NCBI GenBank assembly: GCA_037893245.1
Contig: JBAIAA010000120.1
Coordinates: forward strand, 1,240,001 to 1,304,000
Reading direction: 5' to 3'
Source: Crossaster papposus
Taxonomy: Eukaryota > Echinodermata > Asteroidea > Velatida > Solasteridae
Length of the DNA stretch: 64,000 bases
Every line of letters begins with the position of its first letter. The stretch's first letter is position 1. The notes beneath the pieces are model-generated. The model was not told where the DNA came from, searched no databases, and worked only from the letters and a program-made list of their open reading frames with translations. The position numbers were made by a program, and so were the translations under genes. This document shows positions 11,020-64,000 of this stretch, in pieces.

Positions 11020-13335
11020 ATGGTGAATTTATCAGGTAAATGTTTTACAAGTTAAAGCAAAGAATGAAGGAATATTCTCTCAGTATTTTTAGCATGCTCC
11101 AAGACTGGGGAGTGAGATTAAGACCAAGACCTACGTGGCCAATTCGTATCCTTAACCCTAACTCCTTACACAACAAAGGAAGTTGGAGGATTTTGAAGGA
11201 ATTGTATTGTTCAATAACAATGGTGAGGGAGTTAGGGTTAACGCATTCAATATATCAATTTAAATTTCAAAGAGAACCTCGACTTTACACCAACTTACTC
11301 TGGCCTTTAAACTGATTATCTTCACAGAAATGGACCGTTATGTCACAGTCACCAAACGACCCAATAAAATGAGTAAATCAAATGATTCCGCAGACGTGGG
11401 ACAAGATGCTGTGAGCGTGAAGAAGGCAAGACATCGAGATGAAGATGAAGATAATGAGGATAGGAAAACAGAAGGGGACAAGATTGGGGATGGAGGGGCT
11501 GCCTCGGGAACAAAGGTTAGTAAAATTGAACAAAATAATTATTTTAAAAAGCAGTATACATTTATTAAGTTTACAAGTTTGTGCTGGGATTATTTTGACA
11601 TTGACCATACCCAGCCATGCAAATGCATGGACTTCTTTCCCCAGACGTCGATCCCAGGTGGGTTGAGGTTGTTATCTGATGGGTAGCACACCACCCACAG
11701 AAACTTTGCATGTATACACGTTATCCGACACGAGTGGTCAATAAGAAAATATTTTTGGGAACTGGAAGGTGCCAAGAGGCAGAGTTAATCTCATGCTCCT
11801 GTACTGTTGTAAAGTGTCCTGCCTAAGGGCAAAGCCGGGTCTTATTTTTCTATTTTGGTCATTAATCTGAGTCAGTACCCAGATCTTGGACTTAAAGGTA
11901 GTATACACCATTTGCAGATATCGAAAATATTTACTACCGAATTATTAAGAAATATACTACCGAATTATTAAGAAATATCCTACTCATCTGAAAGTAAATG
12001 TTGATTCTGGGCATCCAGCAAAATGATTGCGCTAGATATTCTGTAATTATTCCGAAACCGGACGGCGATCGCGAAAAAACAAAGATAACATAAGAATAAC
12101 TGCTTGACGCCGGTTGAAAAAAACCGCTGTTTTTCGTGATTTTCTCGGCATCCATGATTCTAAAACTTCGGACAGCTCAGATATTTACTATAAAATACAA
12201 CCCCCAAAAGCTACCAATTCATGATAATTCAAGCAATGACCAATGGTGTATCCTACCTTTAAATTATTATTTAATTTATTTCAGGGTTTTCAGATGAAGG
12301 AGGTGAGAGGTGATCTGTTCGGATGCTCTGATGAGGAGTGCCTTGCTCACTGCATCAGTGAGGATGTCAGGATGGGCAAGGGTATTGCCAAAATCTTCAA
12401 GGAGAAATACGGAGGAGTTAAGGACCTTATGAATCAGGGTGAGAAGATGGGCTTTGCATTAAGAGATTTAAGTTATTAAAAACAAATTGTATCATAAAAT
12501 TGGGCATGATCCCTGGCCACACGGAATTCTGGTGTTTATGACTTCTGACTAGTGCCCTCGAAGAAAGATACTGACAATTTGGGAGACTGCCAACATAGGG
12601 CAAGATAGCTCAGTTGGTAGAGCGTCGGTCCGGTATTCTGAAGGTCGCAGGTTCAAGTCCCGCCTTGCGGATTTCTTTGTTTAGTTTGTAATATATGAAC
12701 AATAAATGTGTTATTTTAATTTTAGTAACCCAGTTTGAGTTTTCATTTCTAATCTGTCCGTTTCTCTTTCAGGTGTAAAACCTGGAGGAGTCGCTGTACT
12801 GAAACGAGGAAAAAAATTCATTTATTATCTGGTGAGGACATTAGATGGACCCTCCATAGTTACAAAAGGTCTTCAAAGTGGGTGTAAATTGGTGCATGGG
12901 CATAAGTAAATTTGCACAATGGATAACAATAAAGGGGCAGCTACTGCTCCATTTTCCTTCCAACAATGCTTTGTACTGATTATTGGTCACAGTCCTTTGT
13001 TTTTTCTCAGTATTTTTTCTGTCCTTTTTTTGTCCCTAGCTGATTAAAAACCTTTCCTTGTTAAAGCCATTTTCTTGAATGATTTATCTACAAACTCCCT
13101 TTTCATTTTTGAAAATCAGGTGACCAAGGAGAAATACTGGAATAAGCCGACCTACGACAGCCTCGCCCGAAGCCTTCGAGCCATGGCCACTCACTGCGTA
13201 AGAAACGACGTTCACAGTGTGTCTATGCCGCGGATTGGGTGTGGACTTGATGGTTTGAAGTGGGATCGAGTCGCGGCTGTGATCAGGGACGCGCTCGGAA
13301 GGACCGATATCACAGTGACCATTTATACGCTGTGA
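11020..13335 (+). CDS. OARD1: ADP-ribose glycohydrolase OARD1/TARG1 (macrodomain)
   Basis: TARG1 removes terminal ADP-ribose from glutamate/aspartate and deacylates O-acetyl-ADP-ribose. Exons: (11020-11035), 11328-11515, 12285-12438, 12773-12831, 13120-13335. The ATG at 11330 gives 204 aa. An upstream ATG at 11020 splices in frame and adds six residues, so the start is undecided. The macrodomain (about residues 65-204) shows RGDLFGC, LAHCISEDVRMGKGIA, VAVLKRGKKFIYYL, the catalytic Lys in VTKEK (13126-13128), PTYDSL, and the catalytic Asp in PRIGCGLD. Both residues known to be essential in human TARG1 are kept, so it is probably active. The roughly 60-residue N-terminal part is Asp/Glu/Lys-rich (RHRDEDEDNEDRK) and longer than in human (152 aa total). 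Introns hold a MITE (11892-12262) and a tRNA-like repeat (12599-12668). Confidence 0.93.
11152..11241. repeat. Short TTAA element with telomere-like termini
   Basis: TTAACCCTAACTCC ... GGAGTTAGGGTTAA, 90 bp in all, in OARD1 intron 1. It is the most compact example of the family, with perfect 14-bp ends. Confidence 0.85.
11892..12262. repeat. MITE with TTAAAGGTAG ends, copy 1
   Basis: Left end TTAAAGGTAGTATACACCA, right end TGGTGTATCCTACCTTTAA. The interior matches 17573-17878. This copy has an extra tandem duplication of a segment containing TACTACCGAATTATTAAGAA. It lies in OARD1 intron 2. Confidence 0.9.
12599..12668 (+). repeat. tRNA-derived repeat in OARD1 intron
   Basis: A box TAGCTCAGTTGGTAGAGC and B box GGTTCAAGTCC. 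GCAAG at the 5' end pairs with CTTGC at the 3' end. The anticodon stem has mismatches, and the 3' flank resembles that of the 8246 copy, so it is more likely a SINE head than a working tRNA gene. Confidence 0.65.
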
Positions 13336-21000: not shown

Positions 21001-24000
21001 GGTATACATGCACACGTATTTCCTATTTGATGTTTTTATGGTCCATTAGTCAATTGGGCGGGGCTTGTATTTTGGCTTTTAGACTGATAAATCATCACAT
21101 TATGCAATTCCCTCCAAAATAAGGCCTGAATTTCCTTCAGTTTACATGAAAACGATTTTCCTATCCATTAATTATTGCGATGAGGTTCGTGTATGTACAC
21201 TGAACAAAAATATAAACACCCACAAAAATATAAACGCCCACAAAAATGGTTATTTGTCTTGATTTATTTATAATGCAGTGATTCCACCCACAACACAGAT
21301 GTGGGTGGAATCACTACATCACTGAGCGATTCCTCACTGGCAGAGATGGACACAAATGTTAATTGTTTATAAATCAAGACAAATAATCATTTTGTTTGCG
21401 TTTATATTTTTGTTCAGTGTACATGTACTTGCATCAGAAGTTTAATTGCCTGGTTGTGAAAAGTGTGGAAGACGATTTGGAAACAAGAAAATTCGTTTTG
21501 AGAATTTGATTGACATTGAGGCAAATAGTCTTTTTGGCTATCCGTTCATTAGTTTTTAGTTTTTAGTTATGTGATGATGACAATGTGACATGGTTGGCAA
21601 GTGTGTAAAAGCGCTTATCTCTCACCAATGTGGCCTGGATTTGATTTCCAGCTTGGACCATATGTGAGTATAGTATGAGGGTTTTTCTCCAGGTCGTCCG
21701 ATTTCCCATATCAGCAAAAATTAACATTTCTCCGTGGTCAGATATGGGTCGTATGGCCGGCTGCTAGGCATCTTTGAGTGCCATCGACTCGACCACGTTG
21801 TAGCCGCGTCCTTGGCAATTCATCATCTACCGTAGCTGCGAGTAAGGATCATTATAATCTCCCCAATTATTATTATTATCTGAAATTATGCACAACTTTT
21901 TATCGCTTACTTTTTTTGTGGGATTTGCAGGAGGACTTCTTGGCCACCGACGACCTGTTTGTCGATTACTTCAATTATTTTCTTCAGCTCCCTGTAAGTT
22001 GCTTCGCTCTAAAATTGTTTTAAACATTGTGATTGACTTGTGACTGACTTGTGACTGACTTGTGACTGACTTGTGACTGACTTGTGACTGACTTGTGACT
22101 GACTTGTGACTGACTTGTGACTGACTTGTGACTGACTTGTGACTGACTTGTGACTGACTTGTGACTGACTTGTGACTGACTTGTGACTGACTTGTGACTG
22201 ACTTGTGACTGACTTGTGACTGACTTGTGACTGACTTGTGACTGACTTGTGACTGACTTGTGACTGACTTGTGACTGACTTGTGACTGACTTGTGACTGA
22301 CTTGTGACTGACTTGTGACTGACTTGTGACTGACTTGTGACTGACTTGTGACTGACTTGTGACTGACTTGTGACTGACTTGTGACTGACTCGATTACAAC
22401 TCTGGAACCGGCCTCCAATTATACATTTCTCCTGCATTTTTAAACAGACCTTTCCAGAACCCCTCATTTTCAACAAAGAAAAGCGGGGTTTTGAGGTGGT
22501 GACGTCGGCCAAACAGGCTCTGAAGGAGAAGATACGATCCCTGATCCGCTCGCAACAGAAACCAAACCCCATCTATAGCGCCACCAAGAGGCTGATGAAG
22601 TCCAAGCTACCGTTGGGAGCCAAGATACCCAGCGGTCCGCAGTACAAAGAGGAAGATTTTGACATCAAAACCAATTTTATGGTCCAGGTATAGACTCTGA
22701 CCATGCTTTTAAATATTTCTACTTTTTCCTCTTTTTTTTGTTTACCTATTTCTGCCTTTCCTCCTTTTTTTCCTTGAAATTCCCTGTTTTTTCTAATTTC
22801 TATTCCACAACCCCCAAACAAAAATCTCATTATTTTTTTTGTATAACAAGGTTTCACATTGTCATGTAATAAATCACACAATGAAGGTCTTGCAGGAATA
22901 CTGCAACTGTACTTCCAATAGCTTTTAGTTGAGGATGGAGCACAAGTGTTGTGAGTACAGAACATGCCAAATGAGGCTTATGGTGATTCGGACACGAGTG
23001 AGCATAAACAAAAAATGTTCTGATTAGCCTGCAAAAGATAATTTGTTTTCTCAATTTTGTTCGCGAAAGTCCTACCTTTGTCTCCTTTTTTAAATGTTGA
23101 TCCTACTATTCTTCTACTTTTTCACTGGGATCTGCTTGAAAGCAAGGACAATTAAGAAATAAAACGTTGCCACTGAAACTTGGCAAACTTTCAATATTAG
23201 TTTTTTAAATTTTGTTGACAGTGCCTTAACAAGGAGCAAGGAATCCAATGGATCAAGGAGGAGAGATTGCCGGCTTTCTTACAGAGTGATTCATACTTAG
23301 AATTTAGACTTGCAAAGCTCATCTCGCAGGTTGAGGCAAGTATATGGGCATATCGCAGTAATCTAAGCATTTAGAGAATAACAGTGTAAGGACCAGGTCC
23401 TTTACTGCGTAATAACGGACCGGGTTGAGGGATGGTATTACCTAAGGTAATACGGTCCGGGTTGAGGGATGATATTACCTAAGGTAATGGACCGAGCTGA
23501 AGAATATAAGAGAAAATATTGGATTTGTTTCTCCCTTAGATTGCTGGCAAAGACAGTGACGTTCCTGTTTATCTGTATATTGATCCCACATACAAACCCT
23601 TTGCTGTCCAAAAACCACCTGTGGTTGAAACCGCCAAAGTTGACGAACAAGGAACAGCCATGCGCCAAATGTATATCTGCATGGGGGATGCCCATCCCAC
23701 ACAAGCTAAGGAGTGGTACAGCGAAGTCAAACTGAAGTCCGGCACGACGACTACCAATTCAGTACAGCCACGGAGTTCAGATGAGTTTAGTTCACGACCG
23801 GCGAGTAGCCGACCGTTAAGCTCGGCGAGTGTTCGACCAGTGAGTTCAATGAGTGGTCGACCGCTGAGTTCCTCAATGAGCATCTGGGATCAAGCTACAG
23901 CTGACAGCGGCATTGGAAGCCCATGGAGACAGGACTCCTTCAGTACCTCGAACTTCGATCCGACGAGTCTGGAAGATATTCCTCGCAGCGAGAGGTTGTT

Positions 24001-27000
24001 TCATAGTCCGCCGAGGTTGCGCTCTCCGCCTCTCTGGCGCCCTCCCATCGGCGACCTCTCTTGCGTGGTTGCCGATAACGCGAGAGGAAGCTACGTCGGA
24101 CCTGTCCACGTTGCCCCTACTGGGTCTAAACCGAAAGTGGCATCGAGAGAGTTGTTGGATGAAGTTGACGACGAGAAACTGAGCATGGAGAGCGGGTTTG
24201 ATGCCGAGAGCCAGCAGCTGAATAACAGCGATAACGAAAACGACGAGGATTTTCCCAGACCACAACCGCCGCCGATCCGAGTATCCTCGTTGGAGGACAT
24301 AGCAAACATTGTCGTGTCCTTCGTCGTGAAGACTGCCATCGCCATGGTAACAGAAGTCTCCCTTGATGAAATTGATGCCTACATTGATGAGAATATTTTA
24401 AGAACGCTTGCAGTTCGCAGTGCTGATTTGACTGAAGGGGCTTTAGGTGATATAGAACTGCCAGCTGAACAAAAGGGACCGTCCATCCTGAAAAATGGCC
24501 TGGATCTGCAAGATGATTGGAGGACAAACAGTCGAATATCCATGGCAACCCTTGGCAACGATGGTTTGGAGGAGGACTCTTTGTTCGACAGTGATAACGA
24601 AAATGAAGCAGAGGAAATAAAAGACCCGTTCTTCTCGAAGCCAAGGTACAGTTTTGATTTGAGCAACAAGAGAGGCCAGGACGGATTCAAGAAGTTCCTG
24701 TGGGGAACTGTCGGAGAGAAAATTTGGAACCTGTGGATAGATGTTGACCGCGGACACATGATTGATGACATGGAGGTTCAGCAACAGTAAGTGAATCACA
24801 GAGCTCAAGAATCTTTCTCTGCCAAAGTCATATTTTTTTTGCTCTAAATTTTGCCAGTTAAAAGGTCTTCGGTGGCAGAAGCTGGATTGGGTCGAAGGAA
24901 GGGGAAGCATGGGCTGATGACCACTTTTTCAATTTTGTTTCCCCTTTCCCCTTATACTTTTGAAAACTTTGCCGAAGAAATGATGTGTCTACTCCTGTTA
25001 TTTCTTCACCTCCATATCTCGGTACCAAGACATGAAACATATTTTAGCCTTTATGTTGACATTAATAATTTGCATCTTTAAACCTTGTGATTTTTCATTA
25101 GCTTTTTAGGTCAGTTGAGGGATAAATACCTAAAAGCTGGTGGAATATGTGAGCTCCCTAGAGAGATACTGAAGTCTCTTGGACTCGATGCACCTTCCAA
25201 ATGGACCAGCATGGACAAACTTACCAAACTACATCCTGACATGGCGACACCACTTCTCCTATATTGGTAATTTTAATTTTTTTTATTCATTTCTCTTTAA
25301 AAACCAAATTGCATCTAGAGCCAATTTGGAGAATCCAGTGTTCTTTTAATGTACAATGGGTATTTCCTCATTGTTTGAGTGAAGTACTATATGTCATGTT
25401 CATCGACAACAACTAGAAAAGGTAAAATTTAAAACGTTTTACAGAAATGAATTGCGGATTTCTAAAACACAGGTTTCAATCCTTTGTGATTTGAAACAGG
25501 GCACCACGATTCCTTATGCGTGAGATGCACACGGGCAGTGGCAGCGGTAGCACAACAACCAACCAGATCTACAAACGCCAGCAGCTACTCAACAACAACA
25601 ACACTAGCAGCAGCAGCACACATCCTGATCCAAGGACCGTCATGCTCCTGCCACTGAGACCCAAGGCCTGCTGGCCAAGACTCAGACACAGCATAGCTCG
25701 TCTGACAGAGGTATACGGGCAACGTTTTGTTCCAACTTTCTCAAGCTTAAAGACATGAAGGTTTTCTATAGCTAAACAAAGTAACTTGCAGTTACACCAT
25801 TTTAAAGAAAATGTCTTTTTGAGTTGAGTTTATTTTATTTTAATTAATGAAGTAGTTTCCTGAGTAGATGAAATAATTATTTGTTTATTCTCATTTGTTA
25901 ATTGTCAGGCAGCATCCAGAAGTGACAAATCCACAAGTCCTCCTCAAGCATGTAATAAAGTCAACCGCAGCAAGACCCTGCCCAGTCTGCCCATCTCCAA
26001 CCTAATGACCTCAGTCACACCGAAGAAGCCCACCCATCACTCTAAGACTGCTTCCCCATCAACACCTCGTAGAATTACCATAAGTATTGGATCGGGGATC
26101 AAGCCCAGTCCTTCCAAGAGGCCTCCCCAAGGAGTCGCCTCTCCGCGGTCGGTGAGAAAGAACGTCAGTGGTGTGGCTGCGTCTGGGGATACAGGAGATG
26201 AGAGATTCGGTGTCAGCGGTGGGATTGGCCAAGAGAGGTTTGGTGGCAGCGGTGGGATCAGCCAAGAGAGATCAGTGACTATAGGAACCGAGGAGATTGT
26301 TGGCGACCAAGAGCAGGAAAAAAGTCAAAGGTAAAAATTTATTTTATTTCAGGCACTGCAATTAAAGTATAAGTCCAGTCTTGCATTCTTTTTATTACTC
26401 TGTTTTTATGAAACTTCTATTCTACTAATATTCCTTCACTCTATTTCAGACCAAACGCGCTCCACAGCCCTAAGCGTCCGACCTCAGCCTCATCCACTTC
26501 CAGCAGTATTGCCTCGGAGGAGAGCGTGTTCCTGGGGGGGAATCGGATGGAGAGCCTGTTGGAGGGACTCTACCATGAGAAGAAGGCTGGAGGGTTCTTC
26601 ATGGCTTACCTGGAGAAACTAGACAACTCTGTGAGTATGAAACAAAGAATTAAGGCACCCCGCTATGCAAATTTAACCCTCTCTATGTCATGCACGAAGC
26701 TCATTTCCACACTACAATCTTTCTACCAACATGCACCTTGTTAAACATTTAGTTGGAAGCTCTTGGATTAATGGATTGGGAGGACAATGGACCCCATCAA
26801 ACTCTGAACTCACATTCAGCATGTAGGTTGTGTAAAGGCACCTGGAAATATATAAACAAACAAAATTTTGTCTAAAAGCTTTTTTACAAAAATTACATAA
26901 ACATCAAAATTACAAGCTGTTAAACTTCACTCTTTTACATTTCTGAGTGTAGTTGATGATCTTCTTACTGACTCACTGACTGTTGTTACTTTCTATGTCT

Positions 27001-49458: not shown

Positions 49459-52400
49459 TTACATCATCCAGGCTGACATTGCTGGCATGTTGGTTTTGAA
49501 CCGAAGGTAATCCATCTTAAGTTCCTCATCTGCGCTCATGTCAGGATAAAGCTGTAGTCCTGAGATCAACTCGACATCTTGAACCGATGTCCAGTGGGTC
49601 GACAAATAGTCATCAAACGACTGTAAAGAAAAATACGCGCAATCTGTCAATTTTAAAAGACAAGGCATTGATCAAATAAGTTTGACTCAGATTTGTGTAT
49701 GGAAGTTCGCTCCAAACAAGGCAAAACTACAAAAGCCACTCAAGGTGAGGAGCTACAAAGAGGACAAAATCAAAGAAGCAAAAGGTAGAAATTAAGATTC
49801 CTCTTGAAGCAAGAGAAATCATAAGATGAGAGAAAACATGCAATCTGTGAATTTTAAAGGACAAGGCATTGATCAGATAAGTTTGACTTGGAATTTTGTA
49901 TGCAAGTTCAATCATAAGACGAGGGAAAACATGCTCTAGGCAAAGAATTCCAACACGTTAACCTGCGACAACGTACCTTGCAGATTCTGACGGAATTTGT
50001 GTGAGGTAAAACGAAGGATATCACTTCCAGAGACTGTAAGGAGCACATGTTCAAGCTAATGTCTTCCTTGCATCTTGAAGCTACGATGAAGTAGTGAGAT
50101 GGGACTGGAGTGTCTACAACCCAGGCTTGGCTGGAAAGGAGTAAGGAGAAGAAAATAAAGTTCTCCTTTAACTCAAGATAACATAACAGCCATCTGCATG
50201 AAGTATCACAGATTAAGGAGACGAAAATAAAAGGAAAAAATGTTGTCCTTTAACTCTAGATAACTTAACAGCCATAAAGTTATAGTACATCATTTGTCAG
50301 TTATGCATTTGTATTATTTGAAACAGCAAACGTTTTATCTCTGTGTGAATGCTGTATGTTGCGAGAAAATAATATTCTAAGTTTTCAATTTTGAAACGAC
50401 TACGAATGGAAATTTCCAAAAATGCATCTTTGAGACACATTTTTTGACTCTTTTATTGTTATTTTCTTTATAATAACAGCACGCCGGGAGAAGTAATTAA
50501 ATTGACAGGGAGTTTAGAGTCATTAATGTCTTTATATGAAGTAAGTTAAAAAAATAATATTCGGTTGGGTAACTACTGGAGAGATTTCAACAAAAGTTGG
50601 TGGCTAAATATATGTAATGGATCAAGGATGATTCCAATAAATTTTCAGATTGATCTGGATCTATATCGGGAATCTGGATCATTTAAATGATTTTTTAAAA
50701 CGTTTTTAAGGTTGGGCTGCACTTTTACCTAGCGTCTTTTTCTAGTTAAATGCGGGATTTTAATTACCTTGCTGCCAGATCCCGGTAAGTGTCCTGCAGT
50801 GTGTCGGAGTCCCAATCGTAAACTGGACCAATCACAACGTTCATCTCAGCTGATCGGTTGCCCTGATTTGCCCACTGGCGTATCTTACCGGCCAATGGTA
50901 GCCACACATCTAATAATTCAATTAAAGAAATGCGTAAACTGGATGATAATAGGTTGAATGAGGGCGCCGTAACGACACCATGTTCTGGATACCAACACTA
51001 GCAAAAATCATGTTTATTGATTATTTATTTATTAAAGTAAGTAATAACTTACTTTATTATAAAAATTAAGTGTACTAAAATTTCAATTTCTAGAATTAGG
51101 GCAGTCATGCTTTAATATACAAGACTACTCTTTAATCACTCGTGTAGTTATCAATGTATACTCAGTGCTTTCCTCAACTTTTTATTTAAAAAAATGACGG
51201 GCTAACTAACTTTACCAGCGCCGGGATTATTTTAACATCACCGAGCCGAGGGGCGGGATTATTTTTAACGAAACTCGAATCCGAAGCGGGTTCAGGCTGA
51301 TAATGCCGGGAAGCGCACCCACGCATTTCCGGCCCTGCTCGCTGCTGACAGACATTTCCGAACTTGAACTTGCGTGTTTATGCGTCATCCGTTTTGAATT
51401 TGGGAAAAATTTTGCGTTTATATACGTCATCTGGCGCGAACTGGTTAAAAGAAAATGACAGGCTAGCTAACTGTAGTAGGACTCCCCACTGACCTTGTTT
51501 GAAAGCAGCATACATGGGTACAATGTTGGCTGACGTCAGGGCATTCAACTCATTGTCCACAGAATCTGCTAAAGCTGAAACGAAATAAAAGACGCACGCA
51601 GGCACCACGTAAACAGGACGGAATTCTGATTACATTAAAAATTTGCCAAAATACCGTGTATTATAGTGTTGTAGTACTCAACCTCGAGTACTACTTGAGT
51701 ACATTTTTTTATGAGTACTCATACTTGTACTCGATTGTTAAAATTCTCGCACTTGGGCAGCCAAAGTACTCGTACTTGTCATGTCAAAATTGTACTCAAT
51801 CATCAAGGTACTCGTACTCAAATAGCAATACTCAATACAATAAATTGTATAACTTGACTTACCACGGCCTTATTTTATTTTATCGATACTTTTATTTGAT
51901 TTTTATAAAAAAATCAAAGGCACTTAAATGTTTGTAAGAATGCAAAGGAGCTGAAACACCTGTTCCAGTTTTTGTTGCAGGTAAACAAACAACCTGTCAC
52001 ATTCATCTCAAACAAAAAACACCCCAAATGACACAAAAACACTGAAAATTTGATTGTTGACTTACATGGATCATATAGAAATCCCTGTATTACATTGATA
52101 GGTAGTCGGGGATTCATGCTACGGTCGTAGTTGGAGCATTTTGGAGAATTCTCAGGCTGTAGTCTGACATCGTAACGCAAGCAGTTTACAATCTGTGTCG
52201 CTGTACCAGCCTAAACATTAAAAAAAATTGTCTTATTTGCAAGTGTATTTGCAAGAATCTACAAGTGTCTAACTTGCCTGCTTAGCTTATAGTATTCTAG
52301 GTATAGGGGTGAACAAATGCCCCTACCTCTCTCAGTGCTAACACAAAGCCAGTTATCATTTCTATCAAATCTAACTCATACCCTACGAGAGAAGAAGGGG

Positions 52401-55400
52401 TTAGATTTGTTTATAGGTTGTTAGTTATAACAGTAGGATAATTAATTATTAACCGAAAAATGTTCAGATGAACTTTTTTTTTAACACAACGCTGATGAGG
52501 CAACTCAAAGGTGTGGGCTTCAAATTAGAAATACTTAGAAAATTTCTTTACTCTTTGCCTAAATTGTGACAGATTATAGTTTGGAAGGAAACAAAGTTTA
52601 GGAAAGAAACAAAGTTTAGGTAGGAAGTTCAAAACAGAGGCAACAACAAGGAGAAAAAAACTTACATTTCTTCGTAGAGTGAAAGAGGCAAGTAGAGGGA
52701 TCTTGAGTTTGTTTTCAAAGGCAGCGACGAAGTTGGACTGAAACAGCTCACAGTAATCTTGCCCTGTGGGTCCGACGTTTCTCGAGATCTTGGGGAAACC
52801 AAAGGGAGCATTTCTCTGTCTGGAAATTGCAGCTGAATATGAAAAGGTTTGGAATAACAAATGAGGTCCCGATCATTTTGTGAACATGCTGTGTCTTGAA
52901 AAATGAGTGGTTTGTTTTTAACGCAACAGAAGTGGGACAAAAAAGACTTGGCTGGCCTAGTCAAGATGGACTAAAACGTCTTGGTTTAGGACATTGTTTA
53001 TACTTAGTCGGTTATTGGTACCTTAATCTGTTAGAGGAAAACAGGCTGGCTCTCGATCCGGAAAAAGTACACGATTGGGTTGTGCAGAGACTTACTAAAA
53101 GTGGATGAACTGATCAATTAATTAATTATTTTAATCTGTAGCAAATATTGTATTTATTTTGATATCAAATTCTACTTTGTTTTCAATTTTGATTTTTAAC
53201 TGATGCCTGTAAGTGGCGGTTCACCGATGTTGGTTTTCAGGAATAAATAAATTAATTAATTAATAAATAAAAAATATTATAAATAAATACAGAGTCTTAA
53301 AAGTAAATAATATTAACGACACTTACCGTTTGTTTGCCTGATACTTTCATCTTTCTCCTTCAGTACCACGCTGTTAGTTTCTGGGTAAGACTGACAAAAA
53401 ATATCCAATAAATAGAAAAGTTATTATACGTGATCTTTAAATTTGTCAAAAACAAAATGGGGAGGGAATGTTACTTAAACAAAAGACAACAAATAAAACA
53501 ATTTTTATTAATGGGGAGAACGTAAATATTGTTGCAGGTAAACAAACAACCTGTCACATTCATCTCAAATAAAACAAAAACACCAAAAATGACATTAAAA
53601 AAAGACAACAAATAAAACAATTTTTTGTTAATAGGAAGGACGTAAATATTTTGTTTTGATTAATCATTGTGACTAATTTATGCCTTTCATAACAAGGAAA
53701 TACTTCACAGAAAATCTATTTTCAATTGCTCCACTTTCTGGTAAACTTACATCCAGAGTTGCTTGGGTGCAGATGCAGCCCGTATCGGAATCTTCTTTCC
53801 TCTGATCGTACTCGTCGTCGTTTTCTGGGTAACTGCATTCCGAGTTCCTTGGAGATGAGAACTCCAAGGAGTCCGTTTCTTGCGTCTTAGGCGATGTCAG
53901 GACATCGCTGAAAATACCCGCCGAGCCGTTGTTGTCTCTTTGTGTCACATTGATAAGTTCTGTGTGAAGATTTAAATAGTAAACTTTGATATTTGTTTTA
54001 CTATAATGGGCTTTACAGTACAATGGTTTTAGTTTTTTTTTACTTAAATATCTTTTAAGACTATCATATGCCATGTCTTCGTCGATGTGGTTAGTGTCAG
54101 CACCATAGTCTACGATTTGGAGGGAAGCGGGGGGGGGGGGGGGGGGGGACATTTACAGTACAATTAATGCAACAGGTGTAAATACAATTATCGCTATCAT
54201 TCTGAACAGTGACGAAAATACACAAAATTAATCTCTATAAGACATGTTGGGGTGGGGCATTGAGGCAGGGGGATGGGAAGTGTGAAAATTTATGGGGAAA
54301 CTAGTGGTGGGAACTGGTGGTGGGAGGAGGGGGGGGGGGGCAACACTTGGGGTATTCTTTGAACTGGATTCTCAAAATAGTGTGTTGTGGCATTTGGGCT
54401 TAGAGCGAGTCTGATGTATGTTCGGAAAATAGTAAAGTTTTTGTTCTACCTGCCATGAGATTATACAAGTCAACATTCCTCACTGCAGATACAGTCTGGG
54501 CCGTCTTAAAGCTTTTTCCAAAACCGACGAACATCCCCTGAAGATAAGAAAACAATTAAACAAAAAACATTACTAAAGATTTAACCCTAACCCTGCCTGA
54601 CCCAGCACAGCAGTGCATCTGTGGTGACTGCTTGACCTTGCTGGACTCTGCACTCAACTCAATGTGACAAAGTACCTGGAGGGTTAGGGTTAAAGTACCT
54701 TCCAATATGATGGCAAGCACTGTACTCAGTGTGGTCCTGAGAGAAAATCACTGGTGTGGGACTCGTTCCAAGAAGTCTTAACACTTGACCATCAAGCTTG
54801 CCCCGGTCGGTCAGCTCAAATAGCCCATCTGGCCCAGAGGATAATAGTGGTACCGCAACTAAACTACTCATAGGAGCGTGAAGAGTTGGATTAGGGTCGA
54901 CCCAAAATCCAATATTGAGTTTAAATTCAAGTACTTGATTGCTAAGCTAGTCTTTAATTTGATGTCTCTGTCGTTTAACCCTAACAATCTCCAATCCAGT
55001 CAAACTCCAACATAGGTTTTGTTGGAATCTGTTAGGATGGGGACTAGTTTCTGGACCCCTTAGACTGATCGTCTTTTACATTGGGTAAGGCATACCATCA
55101 GAGTCCAACAGTTTGTGTGTACAGTTTGTAATTTGTAAGGATGGGTTAGGTTTCTAGTAAACTACACTATGGAGTTATGGTTAATGTAATCTCTCTGTCA
55201 TTTAATTACTAAGTTTACTGTGATTTCTGTCGTTTAATGATTTAATTGTTTACATCAATACAATACGGATACAGGTAAATTTCCAAATTTGTTTACATAA
55301 CTTAATTATAGTAGCCCATGTTTAAATTAGGATTATGAGCTGAGCATGCAGCATATGTGGTACTGTGGTAATTTATTCAAGTTATTCTTGTGGTATTCTT

Positions 55401-58400
55401 AAACATTTGGCACACATTTTAAACTGTATACTAGATTTTTTTATCAACCTAATTTAGTTACCAAAAGACAGGTTGCGTGTGTCTGGGGGATCCTCCATGG
55501 CCCGCCTCCAACGGAATTCTTCTGGAAAACTGCCTAGAATCAGTTTATCGTTATACTTCTACACAATGGTTCTTTCATTCTTTTGAAACGTTCTAATTCT
55601 TTTCCTGTGTGATAATTGTTCCTTCCGACTCCAAGTTTTATATATTCTCCACAGTTCACTTGATTGTTTTTTATTACTACCTATTGTCTTATATTTGTAC
55701 ACGTCACATTCCCGCTGTGAATATGGCCACTGATGCCGGTACGGCGTTAAACCCAAAACTCACTCACTCACTCACTAGTTACTAAAAGTAAAAAACTTGT
55801 GTGTAGCTACCTGCATATTGGGGCTGTAAGGGTTGAAGCCACCAGATGCCCCTTTACAGTTTGTACGATCGTAGCCTTCCTGTTGCCTAAAAAGGACGAT
55901 AAAAAGAAAATGTAACTTGTGAGCAACAAAAAATGACAAACCTCTCGACTGAATAGAAAAGATAAAATTAATGTAAATATATAAATCAAACCCTAAAAAT
56001 ATGCATTGTCGTGATTTTTTTTCAACACATCGCTAGCCAATTCCTTACTTCAGGTCATGTTTTAAAAAAAACTGACATTAAAAGGAAAATGTAACTTGTC
56101 AGCAACAGAAAAGGGCAAACCTCTCGACTGAATAGCAACGATTAATGTAAATATATAAATCAAACCGTAAAAATATGTGTTGTCGTGATTTTTTCACCAC
56201 ATCGCTGGCCAATTCCTTACTTCAGGATATGTTAAAATAAAACTGACGACTACATGTAATTGGGAGTCAAGTTGTCACAATTTTTCCTTTCTTGTCCTGG
56301 GTTCGACTCCCTCCCAGGTTGACATAGGAATCAGGATTTTATTTTGAGTTTTCTTCCAACCTGTAAAATTAAACCCTTTTTGGGGTCTTTTCTCTATAAA
56401 TTTCTAAAGGGTTTTGACAGAGATGAAAGTAGCCTATGGAGAACAAAAATTGGCCGCCCAACAAAATTAGGCTGTACATAGAATGAGCCATTATTTTGAA
56501 AAGTGTGAATAGCTCCCTCTGTAGTTCAGAAAACTTATGTTGTTGCGCCCTCGCTTGCTTACTGCTTCGAGGAATTCTTGGTTTCATTACTAGATATAAA
56601 ACTGTAACAACAATTTGAAGTGGAATCTTAGGCTGGGCTTGTTTTTGATTGAAATAGGGGACATATAACAATAGAGGACAATAGGGTCCCCTATTTCGCC
56701 AAGGTCCCCGATTCCGACTCGTGTGCAAATCCTATGGAGATCATCCGAAAACGTATAAACAAAAGAGGGATAACGGTCGGACAATGCCCCCCTTCACCGA
56801 TTGAAGGCATTTACACACTTGTACTGTGTCCGAATTACTTGGCTATGGTTTAAAATTGCACACGAGTCTATGGTAGTGGCTGCAGCCGCTACCATAGACT
56901 CGTGTGTAATGTTAAGCCGTAGCCAAGTAATTTTAACACAGCCATACCTCGCAAATGTCCATCCTTCGTCCATTAACACCACTGTGTCCTCGTAGTGGAG
57001 GTTGTAAGAGGAGTGCAGGTGTACTGGTAACAGTCTCTTAGTATACACCTGTCCATGCTCCACCTTACACTGTATGGGGTAAAAGTATTAGATGAATAAC
57101 TTAGGTCTGGTTCCCAGAGGCTGCGACTGTGCAAATATATTTAAGATGATATTAAATAATATAGGTACCTGCACTTAAGCTCCTTATGTTGTATGAGATC
57201 GTGTACACAGTGGAAGCAAACTGAGGCGGCAAGGCAGCAGTATACCTTGCATTTATATTTGATGAGAAATATGTAGTGATTATTTTCAGTTTTGCTGTGA
57301 CTTTAATCGTGGAGAATTTATTGCAAAACTTACCTGCAAATGTTCCATAATTTCCTCTGAAGTATCCATTTCAAGTGGGGCTGTGAGCAATACAAAATAA
57401 ATATATTTCATTGCCTAAAATTAATTATTAACTCTTTTCTTGCTGGCCACTGACTTTACAAGCAAAATTTAAAAATATCCAAGTGTTTTGGAGAGTACAA
57501 CAAAGAATGGGCAATACTAGTATAGACCTTGTGCATAGCGGCCATCTTAGAGGGCATATTGTGTACAGCAGGTTTAATGACATGAAAAGGCATTGCCCTC
57601 TAAGATGGCTGCTACGCATATGGTCCATTGTAATGTGAATAACTATATGAGTTATTTTTAAATAATGCTGGTGGATATTGAGGCAGGCACAAATATTAAC
57701 TGCATTGTCTAAGTAAATATTGATATTTCGTCTTGGTTTACCTCTGTCGGTTGGAGTTATCCTTCCTACAGACGTCACCGAGTCAGGAAGCAATGTAAAA
57801 TCATCGACATTGTGGAGGTCCTGAGGTGAACAGACAATGTACAGAATGTCTTGAGAAAGATCTTAAGAAAGATAAATCATTATATCGATCACAAAAGAAC
57901 TCTCTTTAATCCATCCACAAACGCGAAGCGAATTTAATATCACAAAGCATTTGCTGCGAAAAAATTCGCCAAAATTAAAATGGAATTTGAAATGTGTTCA
58001 ACTTTTGAGAATTCGCGTTCACGGCAAGTATAAACTGGCCGTTACTCACATCAATAAGATAGTAAGTCCGATCACAGCTTCGTTCTGCCATGCCTCCTGT
58101 CGACACCACCAAGACATTGATACAGCCAAGATTCGACTCCTTAAACATGGAGTCCAGAAGCACGCCTATGGCACCGTCAACCCTGGCGAGGCTATTCATG
58201 GTCTGTCACAAAAGGAAAATGTCTCATTATGTTTTTGGGGTCGTTTGTAAGCTGTAGTTACTCTGTTAAGTTTAACACCATAATTACGTTGATCCTAATG
58301 ACATTTTTGAAATGTTAATCAATTTCTGTGCCGCCCCCAAACCGCTTGCCTGTACTCCTTATCCCACCCCAAACCAACCCAGCACTAGGAATTCGGTATG

Positions 58401-61400
58401 GAGTAAGGTTGGCGAAAGTTACTTTCCTCGCCTTCCACTACTGTTGGTACCCGGGTTCGATTCCTGCCCTGGTTTACACATTGGGATTTGGTTTTTAGTC
58501 CCAACTTATATGTGGGTTTTCCGATAACATCTTGTGGGGTTTCCTCCACCTCTGTTTCTTGTATTTACTGTGACTTTTTCTTATTGTCTTCTTATAGGTT
58601 TCTTCTGGCTTTGGAGCTACAGTGCCTAGGGCACTTTTGAGGAATCCTTGGTTTCATAACCAGTAAGATAAATAAATAGTAAAGAAAGGAGTAAATAAAA
58701 ATAATATAATACATTGTAAAGTCCCAACGGGACAATTACATTATTATTTTCTGTGTTTACCTCCTTAGAATCTAAGCCATACTTCTGAACTGTTACTCCA
58801 GGATCTTCAAAGTAGACGGTGATAAAACCCGGTCTGGGAAATAAAACCGAACATTCGTAAATTTGTAAAAGCTGCTGAAAATCTACAGAGAATACCAGTA
58901 TTTGTATTTTTGATTAAAAACAGGTGATAATTCATTAGGGCCATGTGAATAAAGACGTATAGTTGCAATTCCTGACAAAAATTGCTTTAAATTTCAACAA
59001 AAGCCAAGGAAATTATGGCCTGCCAAATCAAATTTAAGCCGCGTCCGAATTACTAGCCTATAGCTTAATATTACACATGGGTGTATAGTAGCGGCTACAG
59101 CCACTTCACATAGACCTGTGTTACTTTCAGCCATAGCCATGTAATTTAGAATAGCCTGAGATAACTTAATATTTTTCTTACCTTTCTGATGAGTCTAGGT
59201 GTAACCAATTCAGTACTGTTTGCATCCGATTGCGATAGTCAACTTCACTGGAATGGAAACAAAGTGTCTATGTAAATCCAAAATGCACATTTTGTAACAA
59301 ACACCTTGTTCTGTGCCTTCCACTGAATATAATCCTAGTTTTAATTTATGCTTTTAGATGCATATTAGTAAGAAAACTGGCTTGTCAAATGGAAAAGGAA
59401 ATTGCAGGACTGCAAATGGATTTGATTCCGTGTTTCTCTCAAAGTGAGCCACTTAGATCCTTATTTTACTCGTTCGAACAAATTTCTTTTCTAATAATCT
59501 AATTCTAACTTTGCATCGGCCTATAAACTCTTTGATCGTTTTAAACTCTTTGGTTGGTGTTGTAGTATTCACCATCCGCTTCTGTGACATGGGTTCGAAT
59601 CCCACCCAGGCATACATGTGAATTGGATTTGCAGTCCTCACCTCATTCCATGGATTTTTTCTGGAATGTTCTTTCAGCGTCCCCAAGGGGAGTCAGGTTG
59701 GCGTAGCGATTCTTTCCTCTTTTCCATCGCTGTGACCCGGGTTCGAATCCGGCCTGGGCCAATATGTGGATTGGATTTTTAGTCCCTGCCTTATTCCGTG
59801 GGTTTTCTCCAGGATGTTCTTCCGGGGTTTTCCTCCCACCTCTAAAACTGTACCTTCTTCTTGTTGTCTTCTTACTGTAAGTTTCTTCAGGCTTACGAGT
59901 TACAGTGCCTAGGGAACTTTTAATTTTGAGGGATCTTTAGTTCCATTACCAGAAACAATAAACAATAAACAATAAACCTTGAAAATGTAACATATCTTCA
60001 TTTTTAATTTTGTGTGTGAAGAATCCTTGGTTTTATTTATACCAGAAAGAATCCAATTCTAACCACCTGTCATATGTCTGGTAGTAAGACGGTGACGAAG
60101 GTCGTTCCTCATCAATGTCGCCCTCTCGTCCAATCCACGAGTGACTAGCAGTCAAAATACCATGATCTGCAGCAATGCCCCAAAGCTGTAAGAACAGAGA
60201 AACAAAATCTTTAAAAAAAAGATATTTTCTTGTGTGGGGGGTTTTCAATACTTTAGGTTTTGGGACTCTCATACATAGTATAGACCATGTGCCTGGCAAT
60301 ATGCGCACGCATCGTGTTTTACATAAATTTGGTTAAGAGGCAACATCAGAGGTCACATAATTCAAAGGTGGTCTGACCTGTGGCTTCACTCCTTAACCAA
60401 ATTTTATGCAAAACACGATGTGTGCGCATATTGCCGGACACATTTGAATACAGATGTCTATTGAGAGTCTTAAATTTTTGGAAAATTAAACTGTACTGCC
60501 ATCTCACCCCATTCTGCTGGAACCATCTAGAATCCATTCTACTGTAGGTGTTAGGATGTTCGGCTGGACCAAACTCGGTCTCATTTAAGCTGTAAGCTCT
60601 CAACCAATCTGAGGCTTTTCCGTGGTACGCTGGGTGAATACCCTAACACAACGAGAACAACTTGTTATTTGAATATACAAATAATTGTTTAATGAGGTAG
60701 TTTTTCCACTTGATCATTTCATTAGGGCTCTTGTAAAACCTGTTTACCAAGTTCTCGCTGTTTTGTAAAAAAAAATTAAAACCGGATCTAGGCGCAGGAT
60801 TATTTTTCACAAACATCGACCCCAGCGGGCCCAGGCCAACATTCCTTGGGCAGCACACCCCCACATGCCAGCTGCGAGTTGGTCGCTGACAAATATTGCT
60901 GGTCTTTCTCCGAGTTGCTCGTGGCGTGTTTATCAGTCATGCGTTTAGATTTTCGGAAAAAGTTTGCGCGTGTAAATGTCCTACGACGCAAAGCGAATCG
61001 GTTGATACTAATCAAACAGCTCTTCCACTTTAAAATAAAATGTTGTTGTTTGGGAAAGTAGGAATTTAAAGGAAAGATAAAACTAGGAAAACTACTTACT
61101 GTAACCAAAGAATAGAGATTGGGAATGCCAGTTGATGGATACGATGGAATGGTGTTGCCATGGACACCACACTCAGCTGAAATTAAAAAAATTAATATAT
61201 AAATTAATATAAAAAAAAAAGCAAATGCAAATTCCAAAAATTGAAGTCAATTAGTTCAAACATTAATAAGAAATTTCTAGCAGCCTTGGGTGCCGCGTTT
61301 GTATTGATTTCAAGTAGCAAAGTTGATTTTTTTTCTAAACCTCTCTCCTTTCATCTTAGTTTGATGTTGTCTTATCCCCTCCTCTTTTGACAAGTGTGTT

Positions 61401-62920
61401 ATTATTTTCCAGCCAGTAAGCAGTTTGCAGCAGTTTTAATCTTATTCATTATTATTTTAAAGTTTGAAGACGTAATATACAGTAAAATGATTTATCAAGT
61501 CGTGCTATATGACGTTTTTTATAAAATTTCTCCTTTCATCTTGGATTGAATGTTGTCTTGTCCCCTCCTCCTTTGACAAGTTTGTTATTATTTTACAAAG
61601 TTTGAAGACGTAATATACAGTAAAATGATTTACCAAGCCGTGCTATATTACTGACAAGAGACTGGTGTCTGAAGAAACCACTCTGGAATCCATTCAGTGC
61701 GATCACGACCAAAGGGGGGGTAGAATATCTAGGGAAAAATATTGTCAAGAGTCAACGCAAATTATACAAGAAATGCTACTTATATAAATGATAAATGAGA
61801 GGCATTCTGGCAAAAATTTCTGGAGAAAAATGCAAAAAAAAAGAAATGAAAGGAGTGATTACAAAAAATACTTGATTTGTTTCAAAAGGAACGGAGCAAT
61901 TTATAGACCTCAAGGAATTAGCAGGTTGGGAAACCAGACTAGTTGACTTGCACCCATTTATGGATGTGTAACAGTATTGAAAATAAATGTGGAGTAAACT
62001 AAATTTAATAAATTTGGGGCACTGTTTGAAAATAGATTTCCAACGATTGCCAGCCGGCAATCATTGGAAATTGATACAAATATCCACTTTTCTTGAAAAT
62101 CACAGCACACCAGGTGCCGTGATTTCACAGGATGCTTGAGACTGTTATTCACTTACGGTCAAGAAGGATATTTTTTTTATAATTCAGTAGTTTTTTTTAT
62201 GTTTGAAAATGGTGTATACTTCTCTTAAACATTCATTATTTGTATGATAACGGACAAATAATTATTGTGCATAACTAGGCAACTCACCTGTTTTTGTCTT
62301 TACACTCGTGCACACACATCTTGCCTTTGTTCTTGGAAAATGTTCCCTCAAAGCTCACCGCTGATTAAAAAAGACAGAGAATTGGAAAATGATAATTATG
62401 AGCGAACAAGTACCACAAGATTCACTTTTGTGCACTACAGAACTAAATTGAATTTAGATATATGTCATTGTTACTATTTTTGATAAAAAATTTAAAAAAC
62501 CTGTAAACCTAAACTGTTAACCAGTTTGCGCCGGGGTTATTTTAACATCACCGAGCCGAGGGGCAGGATTATTTTTACCGAAACTCGATCTGAAGCAGGT
62601 TCAGGCCGATAGTGCCGGGAAGCACACCCACGCATTTCCGGCGTTGCTCGTTGCTGACAGACATTTCCGGCCTTGCTCGTGGCGTGTTTATGGTCATCCG
62701 TTCTGAATCTGGGGAAAACTTTGCGTGTATATACGTCGTCCTCGGGCGCGAACTGGTTAAACCTTAAACATCTAAACTTTTATGTCCGCTCTGTTTTCAA
62801 ATGGCGAAGTAGAAATCTTCTGACAGAATTGGTTTTGATAAAGTAATACTTACAGGCTGCATTGCTGGAACCAATTCCGATTGCTATGGCCAACGCAACA
62901 AGTAGTAGAAAAATAACGAC
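49459..62920 (-). CDS. ENPP1/3-like protein with degenerate active site (pseudoenzyme), 22 exons, 5' end missing
   Basis: ENPP1-3 are membrane ectoenzymes hydrolysing nucleotide phosphodiesters. Exons: 62854-62920, 62288-62360, 61634-61728, 61100-61176, 60508-60642, 60067-60185, 59182-59247, 58761-58833, 58050-58202, 57742-57820, 57334-57380, 56948-57063, 55811-55886, 54450-54537, 53751-53959, 53327-53390, 52666-52832, 52066-52210, 51494-51574, 50768-50909, 49977-50130, 49459-49620. All phases join with no stop, 795 aa. Order: one hydrophobic anchor (VVIFLLLVALAIAIGIG), short linker with no visible somatomedin B domains, phosphodiesterase-like domain, acidic linker, nuclease-like domain (QDYCELFQSNFVAAF, NVVIGPVYDWDSD, VPSHYFIVASRC, QDVELISGLQLYPD). 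The zinc-binding Asp/His residues and nucleophile Thr are all replaced. The first exon was not found. Confidence 0.88.
51211..51448 (+). repeat. TTAA MITE with CCAGTTCGCGCC ends, copy 3
   Basis: The right end GGCGCGAACTGGTTAA is intact; the left end is shortened (TTTACCAGCGCCGGG). The interior is nearly identical to copy 2. It lies in an ENPP intron. Confidence 0.85.
51655..51845. repeat. hAT-like MITE remnant rich in GTACTCG
   Basis: GTGTTGTAGTACTCAACCTCG followed by many AGTACTC and GTACTCG words in both orientations. This composition is typical of some hAT MITEs, and its start resembles the TTGTAGTCGAGTCC ends above. Termini are not clean. Confidence 0.5.
52896..53108 (+). other. Plus-strand open frame inside ENPP intron, possible retroelement end
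   Basis: A 60-70 codon frame (EVGQKRLGWPSQDGLKRLG, then LGHCLYLVGYWYLNLLEEN) ends at a TGA at 53106. About 135 bp later comes a tail of AATTAATTAATAAATAAA type (53241-53290). A protein-like frame with a simple-repeat tail would suit the 3' end of a non-LTR retrotransposon, or a retrocopy fragment. I do not recognise the protein. Confidence 0.25.
54581..54694. repeat. TTAA element with telomere-like termini, subfamily 1, shorter copy
   Basis: TTAACCCTAACCCTGCC ... GGAGGGTTAGGGTTAA. The body matches 761-908 apart from an internal deletion. It sits in the ENPP intron just upstream (minus strand) of exon 54450-54537. Confidence 0.85.
54975..55184. repeat. TTAA element with telomere-like termini, subfamily 2
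   Basis: Starts TTAACCCTAACAATC and ends GGAGTTATGGTTAA. The body is shared with 32615-32812. It lies in an ENPP intron. Confidence 0.75.
55289..55800 (-). repeat. Ectopic inverted fragment of the tandem-array unit
   Basis: The reverse complement matches about 37900-38420 of array unit 1, including the inserted element (about 55464-55776 here) and the flanks TTTAGTTAC and GTTACATAACTTAATTA. It is therefore a copy of an array segment after element insertion, placed in an ENPP intron, 12 bp from exon 55811-55886. Confidence 0.9.
56245..56370 (+). repeat. tRNA-headed SINE fragment
   Basis: B box GGGTTCGACTCCC and downstream GTTTTCTTCCAACCTGTAAA match the order in the SINE at 59.7 kb. Intronic. 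Confidence 0.55.
56824..56945. repeat. Hairpin MITE, family A, abutting an ENPP splice donor
   Basis: Left CTGTGTCCGAATTACTTGGC and right GCCAAGTAATTTTAACACAG are inverted repeats, with CTATGGTAG...CTACCATAG at the centre. Its right end lies next to the donor gtatgg (56942-56947) of exon 56948-57063. Confidence 0.85.
57521..57628. repeat. Hairpin MITE, family B
   Basis: TATAGACCTTGTGCATAGCG...ATCTTAGAGGGCA is mirrored by TGCCCTCTAAGAT...GCATATGGTC. The related element at 60282-60441 starts TATAGACCATGTGC. Confidence 0.8.
58393..58680 (+). repeat. tRNA-headed SINE, copy 1
   Basis: tRNA-like head with B box GGGTTCGATTCC (58451), body with TGGGTTTTCC and GTGCCTAGGGCAC, ending in GATAAATAAATAG. 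Same layout as 59690-59975. ENPP intron. Confidence 0.75.
59038..59157. repeat. Hairpin MITE, family A, diverged copy
   Basis: GCCGCGTCCGAATTACTAGC...GTAGCGGCTACAGCC...CATAGCCATGTAATTTAG. Matches 56824-56945. Confidence 0.75.
59540..59688 (+). repeat. tRNA-headed SINE, truncated copy
   Basis: B box GGGTTCGAATCCC at 59591 and downstream CTCATTCCATGGATTTTTTC match the neighbouring complete SINE, which begins immediately after it. Confidence 0.7.
59690..59975 (+). repeat. tRNA-headed SINE with AATAAAC tail, copy 2
   Basis: A-box-like TTGGCGTAGCGATTC, B box GGGTTCGAATCC (59740), a body with GTGGGTTTTCTCCAGG and CAGTGCCTAGGG, and a tail (AATAAAC)n. The best-preserved SINE in the window. Intronic. 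Confidence 0.85.
60282..60441. repeat. Hairpin MITE, family B, copy 2
   Basis: GGCAATATGCGCACGCATCG...TTAACC..ATTTGGTTAAG is mirrored by CTTAACCAAAT...CGATGTGTGCGCATATTGCC, about 160 bp. ENPP intron. Confidence 0.85.
60779..61006 (-). repeat. TTAA MITE with CCAGTTCGCGCC ends, copy 4, degenerate
   Basis: The interior (GGATTATTTTTCAC, AAATATTGCTGGTCTTTC, GTGGCGTGTTTAT) is recognisable, but both ends are mutated. Confidence 0.65.
62517..62760 (+). repeat. TTAA MITE with CCAGTTCGCGCC ends, copy 5
   Basis: TTAACCAGTTTGCGCCGGGG ... GGCGCGAACTGGTTAA. Intact ends, ENPP intron 1. Confidence 0.9.
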
Positions 62921-64000
62921 CTGAAACACAGAATATAATAGAATATTCTTCTATCATAACAGAAATCTATTTTAATATTTTATATTTGTAAGCCAGTGGC
63001 ACTGGGGTTGGAGGCCTTCGTATCATAGTTTTTAAGTTACCTTTTTTAACTCCATGCATAATTATGTGCCACAGGTTATTTTAAAAAAAATTGTACTGTG
63101 TTGTTTTTATGTGGTGGATGCCAAATACATAATAACAATTATAATAAAGATGGGTAGGAGGCACAATATATTTTCTTGCAATTGGAAAATACAATGTTGG
63201 AAGCTTTTTCATAATTATATACACAATGCAGTGTGCAGCATTAAGCAATTTAAGGCCATAATTTTAGTTGATGTTGGTGCTCTAACGCCAATTCCTGTTT
63301 TTTAAGCAGTTTAGAAATTTCAAAAAATACACAATGAACAAAAATATATGTAATATGCTATTGGAATGTGTAACCTGACGTGAATTATCCTTGATTTACT
63401 ATTGATTTTACCCCCAAATACTGCTAACAGTGCCCTAGTTCAAGAATATTGAGAAAAGTGTTTTTTGTTTTTTAAGGTATTTTAAGGTTAACTCTTGCTC
63501 TATGAGAGTTGTTTATTGCATGGCAGTGCGAAATGCCAATGCACTCCAGCTGTGTGCATTTGAGGAGTATACACAGGCATTTTGGGGGGCCGAATATTGA
63601 GGTGCATTGGAGTTAAACAAGATGGTTAATGAATCCAAGATCGGATCAAGAATGTGGGACTCTTCCTTTTTGGGAATAAGTCCTGGGCACACATTCATTG
63701 CTCTGCTTACTGTTAGCGAAAAATGCCCGCTGTAACTCTAATAAATTGTTGCAATTGTTAGTAATACACAAAAACATGTCACCCAGTTCGCGCCGGGATT
63801 ATTTTAACATTACCAAGCCGAGGCGCAGGATTATTTTTAACGAAACTCGATCCGAGGCGGGTTCAGGCCGATGGTACCGGGAAACACACCCACGCATTTC
63901 CGGCCTTGCTTGCCGCCGACAGACATTTCCGGCCTTGCTCGTGACGTGTTTATGCATCATTCGTTTTGAATCTGGGAAATGCGTCCTCGGGCGTGTGAGA
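62921..64000. other. Right edge, upstream of the first visible ENPP exon
   Basis: The acceptor before exon 62854-62920 (ctgaaa read inversely) implies an upstream exon encoding the cytoplasmic N-terminus, but none can be identified with confidence before 64000. A TTAA MITE occupies the last 219 bases. Confidence 0.5.
63782..64000 (+). repeat. TTAA MITE with CCAGTTCGCGCC ends, copy 6, cut by window end
   Basis: Left end CCCAGTTCGCGCCGGG with the same interior as copies 2 and 5. The right terminus lies at or beyond the window edge. Confidence 0.85.

Follow-up and report, generated by a model that had tools for sequence, protein, structure and literature searches.

What becomes of a phosphodiesterase gene when its exons stay intact but its catalytic residues are replaced? 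The question is raised by an ENPP1/3-type gene of Crossaster papposus, which lies at 62920-49459 on the minus strand of the window, our term for the whole stretch of 64,000 nucleotides analysed here (G000:C120:1240001-1304000 of a 1.02-Gb genome). We rebuilt 22 exons from the sequence (Table 1). All 21 introns are of the GT-AG type, the phases join, and the coding sequence (CDS) comprises 2394 nt and 797 codons, with a terminal TAA as its only stop. The 22 in-phase, stop-free exons reported in a preliminary description of the locus are therefore real features of the sequence, although that model lacked a start codon. When we required an ATG, an open frame and a phase-0 GT donor that matches the consensus at 7 of 9 bases, a single candidate first exon was obtained between 62921 and 64000. 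It would encode MELKK (donor AAG/GTAACT, phase 0) and would read on in frame into the hydrophobic stretch that exon 1 encodes.

Table 1. Features of the ENPP1/3-type gene, in the order of transcription; positions are those of the window.
Feature	Position	Strand	Basis
Candidate first coding exon (MELKK)	63041..63055	-	inferred only
Exon 1 of the preliminary model: hydrophobic helix, putative signal anchor or signal peptide	62854..62920	-	
Exon 2: short linker, two Cys	62288..62360	-	
Exon 3: PDE domain start	61634..61728	-	rebuilt model and Pfam
Zinc-ligand Asp (MDGF) to Asn	61692..61694	-	phmmer, codons, MAFFT
Exon 4	61100..61176	-	rebuilt model and spliced alignment
Nucleophile Thr (TFPN) to Gly	61127..61129	-	phmmer, codons, MAFFT
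Exon 5	60508..60642	-	rebuilt model and spliced alignment
Exon 6	60067..60185	-	rebuilt model and spliced alignment
Exon 7	59182..59247	-	rebuilt model and spliced alignment
Exon 8	58761..58833	-	rebuilt model and spliced alignment
Zinc-ligand Asp (PDxxGH) to Gly	58797..58799	-	phmmer, codons, MAFFT
Zinc-ligand His (PDxxGH) to Gln	58785..58787	-	phmmer, codons, MAFFT
Exon 9	58050..58202	-	rebuilt model and spliced alignment
Zinc-ligand Asp-His (DHGM) to Thr-Gly (T 58100-58098, G 58097-58095)	58095..58100	-	phmmer, codons, MAFFT
Exon 10	57742..57820	-	rebuilt model and spliced alignment
Exon 11	57334..57380	-	rebuilt model and spliced alignment
Exon 12	56948..57069	-	rebuilt model and spliced alignment
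Exon 13	55811..55886	-	rebuilt model and spliced alignment
Zinc-ligand His (HGY) to Gly	55841..55843	-	phmmer, codons, MAFFT
Exon 14: PDE domain end	54450..54537	-	rebuilt model and spliced alignment
Exon 15: linker, DNA unique in genome search	53751..53959	-	rebuilt model and genome search
Exon 16: linker, boundaries differ in blind spliced alignment	53327..53390	-	
Exon 17: NUC domain start	52666..52832	-	rebuilt model and spliced alignment
Exon 18	52066..52210	-	rebuilt model and spliced alignment
Exon 19	51494..51574	-	rebuilt model and spliced alignment
Exon 20	50768..50909	-	rebuilt model and spliced alignment
NUC acidic loop DWDSDTLQD, kept	50791..50817	-	alignment
Exon 21	49977..50130	-	rebuilt model and spliced alignment
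Exon 22 with terminal stop	49459..49620	-	rebuilt model

The best match of the predicted protein in the Protein Data Bank (phmmer) was ENPP3 (6f30, E 5.6e-95, residues 47-791); chains of ENPP1, ENPP2 and further ENPPs ranked next. Pfam recognized a phosphodiesterase (PDE) domain (Phosphodiest, PF01663; E 4.5e-50) at 171.6 bits against a cut-off of 23, a score on which automatic annotation would label the gene a phosphodiesterase. It also recognized a NUC domain (Endonuclease_NS, PF01223; E 7.3e-6, 26.2 bits, cut-off 23) and no further domain up to E 1. The PDE domain is 29.7% identical to that of ENPP3 and 29.8% to that of ENPP1, and the NUC domain is 32.8% identical to that of ENPP3. On these matches the gene is, by descent, a member of the NUC-bearing ENPP1-3 group. 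Vertebrate ENPP1-3 carry two N-terminal somatomedin-B (SMB) domains. Pfam detected none in the 797-residue protein, and no SMB-like cysteine pattern was seen on the gene strand at 61600-64000 or in the 5 kb beyond. The N-terminal hydrophobic stretch reaches a 17-residue mean hydropathy of 2.84, the first exon being only a candidate.

In mouse ENPP1 the zinc ligands are Asp358, His362 and His517 on one side and Asp200, Asp405 and His406 on the other, with Thr238 as the nucleophile (PMC6200793, accessible part). In both the phmmer and the MAFFT alignment our protein keeps none of the six ligands. The columns of Asp358, His362 and His517 read Gly, Gln and Gly, and those of Asp200, Asp405, His406 and Thr238 read Asn, Thr, Gly and Gly, giving the catalytic string NGGQTGG against DTDHDHH in the family (7/7 replaced). 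Chance is excluded as an explanation because the match over residues 47-791 fixes the register. The preliminary description had held that every catalytic residue was lost, and this is borne out, both alignments placing all seven on catalytic columns; its seven codon coordinates were also correct when checked against the codons and the exon table. The full catalytic set is present in all seven members ENPP1-7, as DTDHDHH in ENPP1-5 and ENPP7 and as DSDHDHH, with a Ser nucleophile, in ENPP6. DTDHDHH was likewise found in all 77 bacterial homologues that were usable, drawn from the best 80 of 396, a narrow set, mostly Flavobacterium, that was collected with patterns allowing T or G at the nucleophile and from which three loci (L045, L060 and L080) were left out when the filter picked no ORF. 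Among the 85 rows compared (ENPP1-7, the 77 bacterial proteins and our gene), ours is the only one without the catalytic residues. Viral contigs yielded 119 pattern matches and no relatives. Judging from the published mechanism, nucleotide hydrolysis should not run once the zinc ligands and the nucleophilic Thr are missing.

The exon model was examined with a purpose-written spliced protein-to-DNA aligner, whose profile held only vertebrate ENPP1, 2 and 3 and was thus blind to the earlier model. The resulting alignment covers 61727-49504. Of the 19 introns that follow exon 3 it agrees with the earlier model on both boundaries in 16. Disagreement is confined to three introns, around the weakly conserved linker (exons 15-16) and ahead of exon 22, where two small pieces are added. 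Nowhere at the locus did the blind alignment detect an exon that restores a catalytic residue. A six-frame scan of the window for the canonical motifs returned six strings, five on the plus strand and one on the gene strand inside the gene. Neither approach gave a corrected exon model with canonical ligands, an outcome that would have spoken against the preliminary description. Two candidates for further ENPP sequence nearby were rejected: a tandem copy within the window (best tblastn match outside the gene, E 0.30) and a weak ENPP5 match in the 5 kb that lie beyond it (E 0.001 over 39 columns, with an internal stop), the single one among the matches listed for 4 of 8 query rows, which we read as chance.

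Searched against the genome, the protein gave 27 matches: 22 were the exons of the gene itself, and the other five were weak (two on C193, two on C412 and one on C456; best E 0.00136). The DNA of exon 15 matched only itself, and with these protein and DNA queries no second copy, whether a recent or an allelic duplicate, was found. An ENPP3 query recovered two exons of our gene; for its NUC part, matches below E 0.5 fell in our gene and in one gene on C193, and a further match on C160 had E 0.52. A genome-wide Pfam search omitted our gene, and the counts from that search are therefore minimum values. The C193 gene (G000:C193:1385103-1371686, minus strand), read with the spliced aligner, is an ENPP1/3-type paralogue with the string DTDHDHH, so that the active-site-bearing relative that the preliminary description proposed to look for exists, with all seven residues in place. 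Its domain order is like that of our gene, and 17 introns are common to the two, in the same phase and within 2 residues, as counted from aligner models with 21 introns (window) and 23 (C193). The PDE domain of the paralogue is 41.8% identical to ENPP3, compared with 29.7% for our gene, and the two PDE domains are 26.0% identical to each other. The shared intron positions argue for a DNA-based duplication rather than a retrocopy, and the low identity argues that it was old; on this evidence the two genes are old DNA duplicates. The placement of our gene in trees is unstable. An alignment of 377 columns that included a bacterial outgroup placed it outside ENPP1-3 plus the C193 paralogue (support 86), whereas with 713 columns it was sister to the paralogue (support 96). 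Its branch is 1.6-1.9 times as long as that of the paralogue (1.59 vs 0.98, and 1.54 vs 0.83). Our gene has both sequence features of a pseudoenzyme, the loss of all seven catalytic residues and a relative with an intact site, and is best filed as an ENPP1-3 pseudoenzyme paralogue rather than as an ENPP enzyme.

The genome holds other ENPP-like sequences. Apparently two adjoining ENPP-like genes lie at G000:C193:574776-585508 on the plus strand (L082-L085 and L088) and carry the motifs LLDGMRSD and VVDGLRWD. An ENPP4/5-like gene at G000:C412:2712209-2715299 on the minus strand (L081 and L087) has the Asp, Thr, Asp/His, Asp/His and His motifs. A weak PF01663 match (E 1.8e-5) at G000:C689:537854-538105 on the plus strand is absent among the ENPP-query matches listed.

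Outside the active site much of the protein is recognizable. At 11 of the 13 cysteine columns common to ENPP2 and ENPP3 the cysteine is in register, a twelfth cysteine lies one residue off its column, and the remaining column is Ala, as in ENPP6; another alignment gave 10 of 12 columns kept. The NUC acidic loop, which binds calcium in ENPPs, and the glycosylation motif (NGS/NGT; NGS in our protein) are also kept. Together these features suggest that the fold is probably maintained. GC3 is 0.50 in the CDS and GC content 0.36 in the introns. At 99 columns identical in ENPP1, 2, 3 and the C193 paralogue, the protein keeps 0 of 7 catalytic residues vs 54 of 92 others (Fisher p 0.003, columns taken as independent), and at 43 columns invariant in ENPP1-7 it keeps 0 of 6 ligands vs 24 of 37 others (p 0.004, on the same assumption). 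The invariant non-ligand columns are kept at 9 of 16 positions near the active site and at 15 of 21 far from it. By these counts catalytic columns have been lost preferentially, and change extends beyond the active site, with 38 of the 92 non-catalytic conserved columns altered as well. The constraint on the gene seems real but relaxed or redirected.

We consider it probable that the gene is an intact NUC-bearing ENPP1-3 paralogue with a dead PDE site, a pseudo-phosphodiesterase that most likely acts by binding, as an adhesion or scaffold protein or as a non-hydrolysing ligand binder. We trace it to an old duplication at the DNA level, not to a retrocopy. We infer that the protein is expressed and enters the secretory pathway through its predicted N-terminal hydrophobic helix, and that its PDE and NUC domains would fold into an ectodomain stabilized by the family disulphides. 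Nucleotide hydrolysis would be absent, and the protein would work by binding, at the cell surface or extracellularly. In mouse brain, autotaxin (ENPP2) devoid of catalytic activity brought back polarity markers and the positioning of cells and, in part, their morphology (PMC4349085, accessible part). By analogy with this inactive ENPP, which is no evidence on our own gene, a non-catalytic adhesion or scaffold role is the one we favour. We give less credence to another proposal, namely an ancient, lineage-wide ENPP pseudoenzyme whose ectodomain serves as a receptor or decoy and leaves its ligand unhydrolysed, be it an extracellular nucleotide, a lipid or a protein partner such as, perhaps, the C193 paralogue; this we regard as unlikely. 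The long branch, the 38 altered conserved positions and the unstable tree placement count against the pseudo-phosphodiesterase that we prefer. The interpretation given in the preliminary description is supported in part, its structural, receptor or nucleotide-binding role being conjectural.

The long branch and the many changed conserved residues would also be expected of a young unitary pseudogene, one that lost its function recently and whose frame is still unbroken. Simulated copies drifting without constraint remained free of stops in 52 of 300 cases at 0.02 neutral changes per site and in 125 of 300 at 0.01, so a very recent loss could leave the frame open; at 0.05 changes per site none of 300 survived. 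However, the 21 nt of the seven catalytic codons have undergone 14 or more nucleotide changes, far above the drift expected after recent loss, with no internal stop in the gene, and the intact splice sites, cysteines and NUC loop also speak against decay. The case against a recent pseudogene made in the preliminary description is supported by the length of the ORF, which drift without constraint would have interrupted, and we judge this explanation unlikely.

No more probable, in our view, is a sensor or decoy that binds a nucleotide, pyrophosphate or dinucleotide through an altered pocket without hydrolysing it. The residues that form the adenine pocket are defined in PMC6200793 (accessible part). 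Our protein keeps W304 and Y322, and the changes K277R and D308E are conservative, which speaks for such a binder. However, the phosphate anchor formed by the two zinc ions is gone, F239I leaves the base sandwich with one face missing, and N259D brings in a negative charge. P305I is a further change, but the positions of Lys277 and Pro305 weigh little because the C193 paralogue also differs there (Ala for Lys277, Val for Pro305). With the pocket only partly kept, nucleotide binding is doubtful; it is possible but not favoured.

That the protein has remained an enzyme, through a metal-free or relocated PDE active site or a revived NUC domain, would fit the retained domain layout and part of the pocket but is very improbable: the catalytic columns offer no substitute Asp or His, and the NUC domain of the ENPP1-3 group is considered to lack catalytic function. 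A mistake in the exon model or the assembly that hides canonical residues is barely credible, since the one string in its favour, a TFPN on the gene strand in intron 4 (61059), sits in an 11-codon stretch between stops with no surrounding homology and is read as chance, whereas the blind spliced alignment gave no alternative, the changed residues are spread over five separate exons, and no second copy was found as the source of a mix-up.

The protein resembles ENPP3 and ENPP1 in its PDE-linker-NUC layout, cysteine pattern, NGS/NGT motif and NUC acidic loop, and differs from them in having none of the seven catalytic residues, no detected SMB domain and a longer branch. With autotaxin it would share the ability of an ENPP ectodomain to act without catalysis, but autotaxin is an active enzyme with all its ligands, and its dead forms were engineered (PMC4349085, accessible part). 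Pseudoenzymes described elsewhere, such as the myotubularin-related MTMR5 and PRG-1, have likewise lost catalytic residues or activity and have active relatives, but belong to other folds (PMC11314389, accessible part). Our searches of open-licence papers, including the accessible parts of PMC11314389 and PMC4460706, brought up no ENPP pseudoenzyme, which is weak evidence of novelty. A natural ENPP1/3-type protein that has lost all its ligands but apparently retained its ectodomain would allow catalysis and binding to be told apart as functions of the family; for autotaxin, engineered mutants have so far been used to address this (PMC4349085, accessible part).

Elsewhere in the window, all on the plus strand, we noted an ORF with an FHA domain (PF00498, E 1.2e-8) at 6547-6894, which presumably resembles PPP1R8/NIPP1, and two tRNA-Thr-like sequences at 8246-8319 and 12598-12671, with anticodons AGT and GGT. 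Ser-rich open frames of 416, 156 and 110 aa at 23540-26741, on the same strand, have no Pfam match and are possibly exons of an uncharacterised gene. A minisatellite at 22027-22390 consists of 33 copies of an 11-bp unit with 99% matches, and its minus strand is open as a SQSQVSHKSVT repeat.
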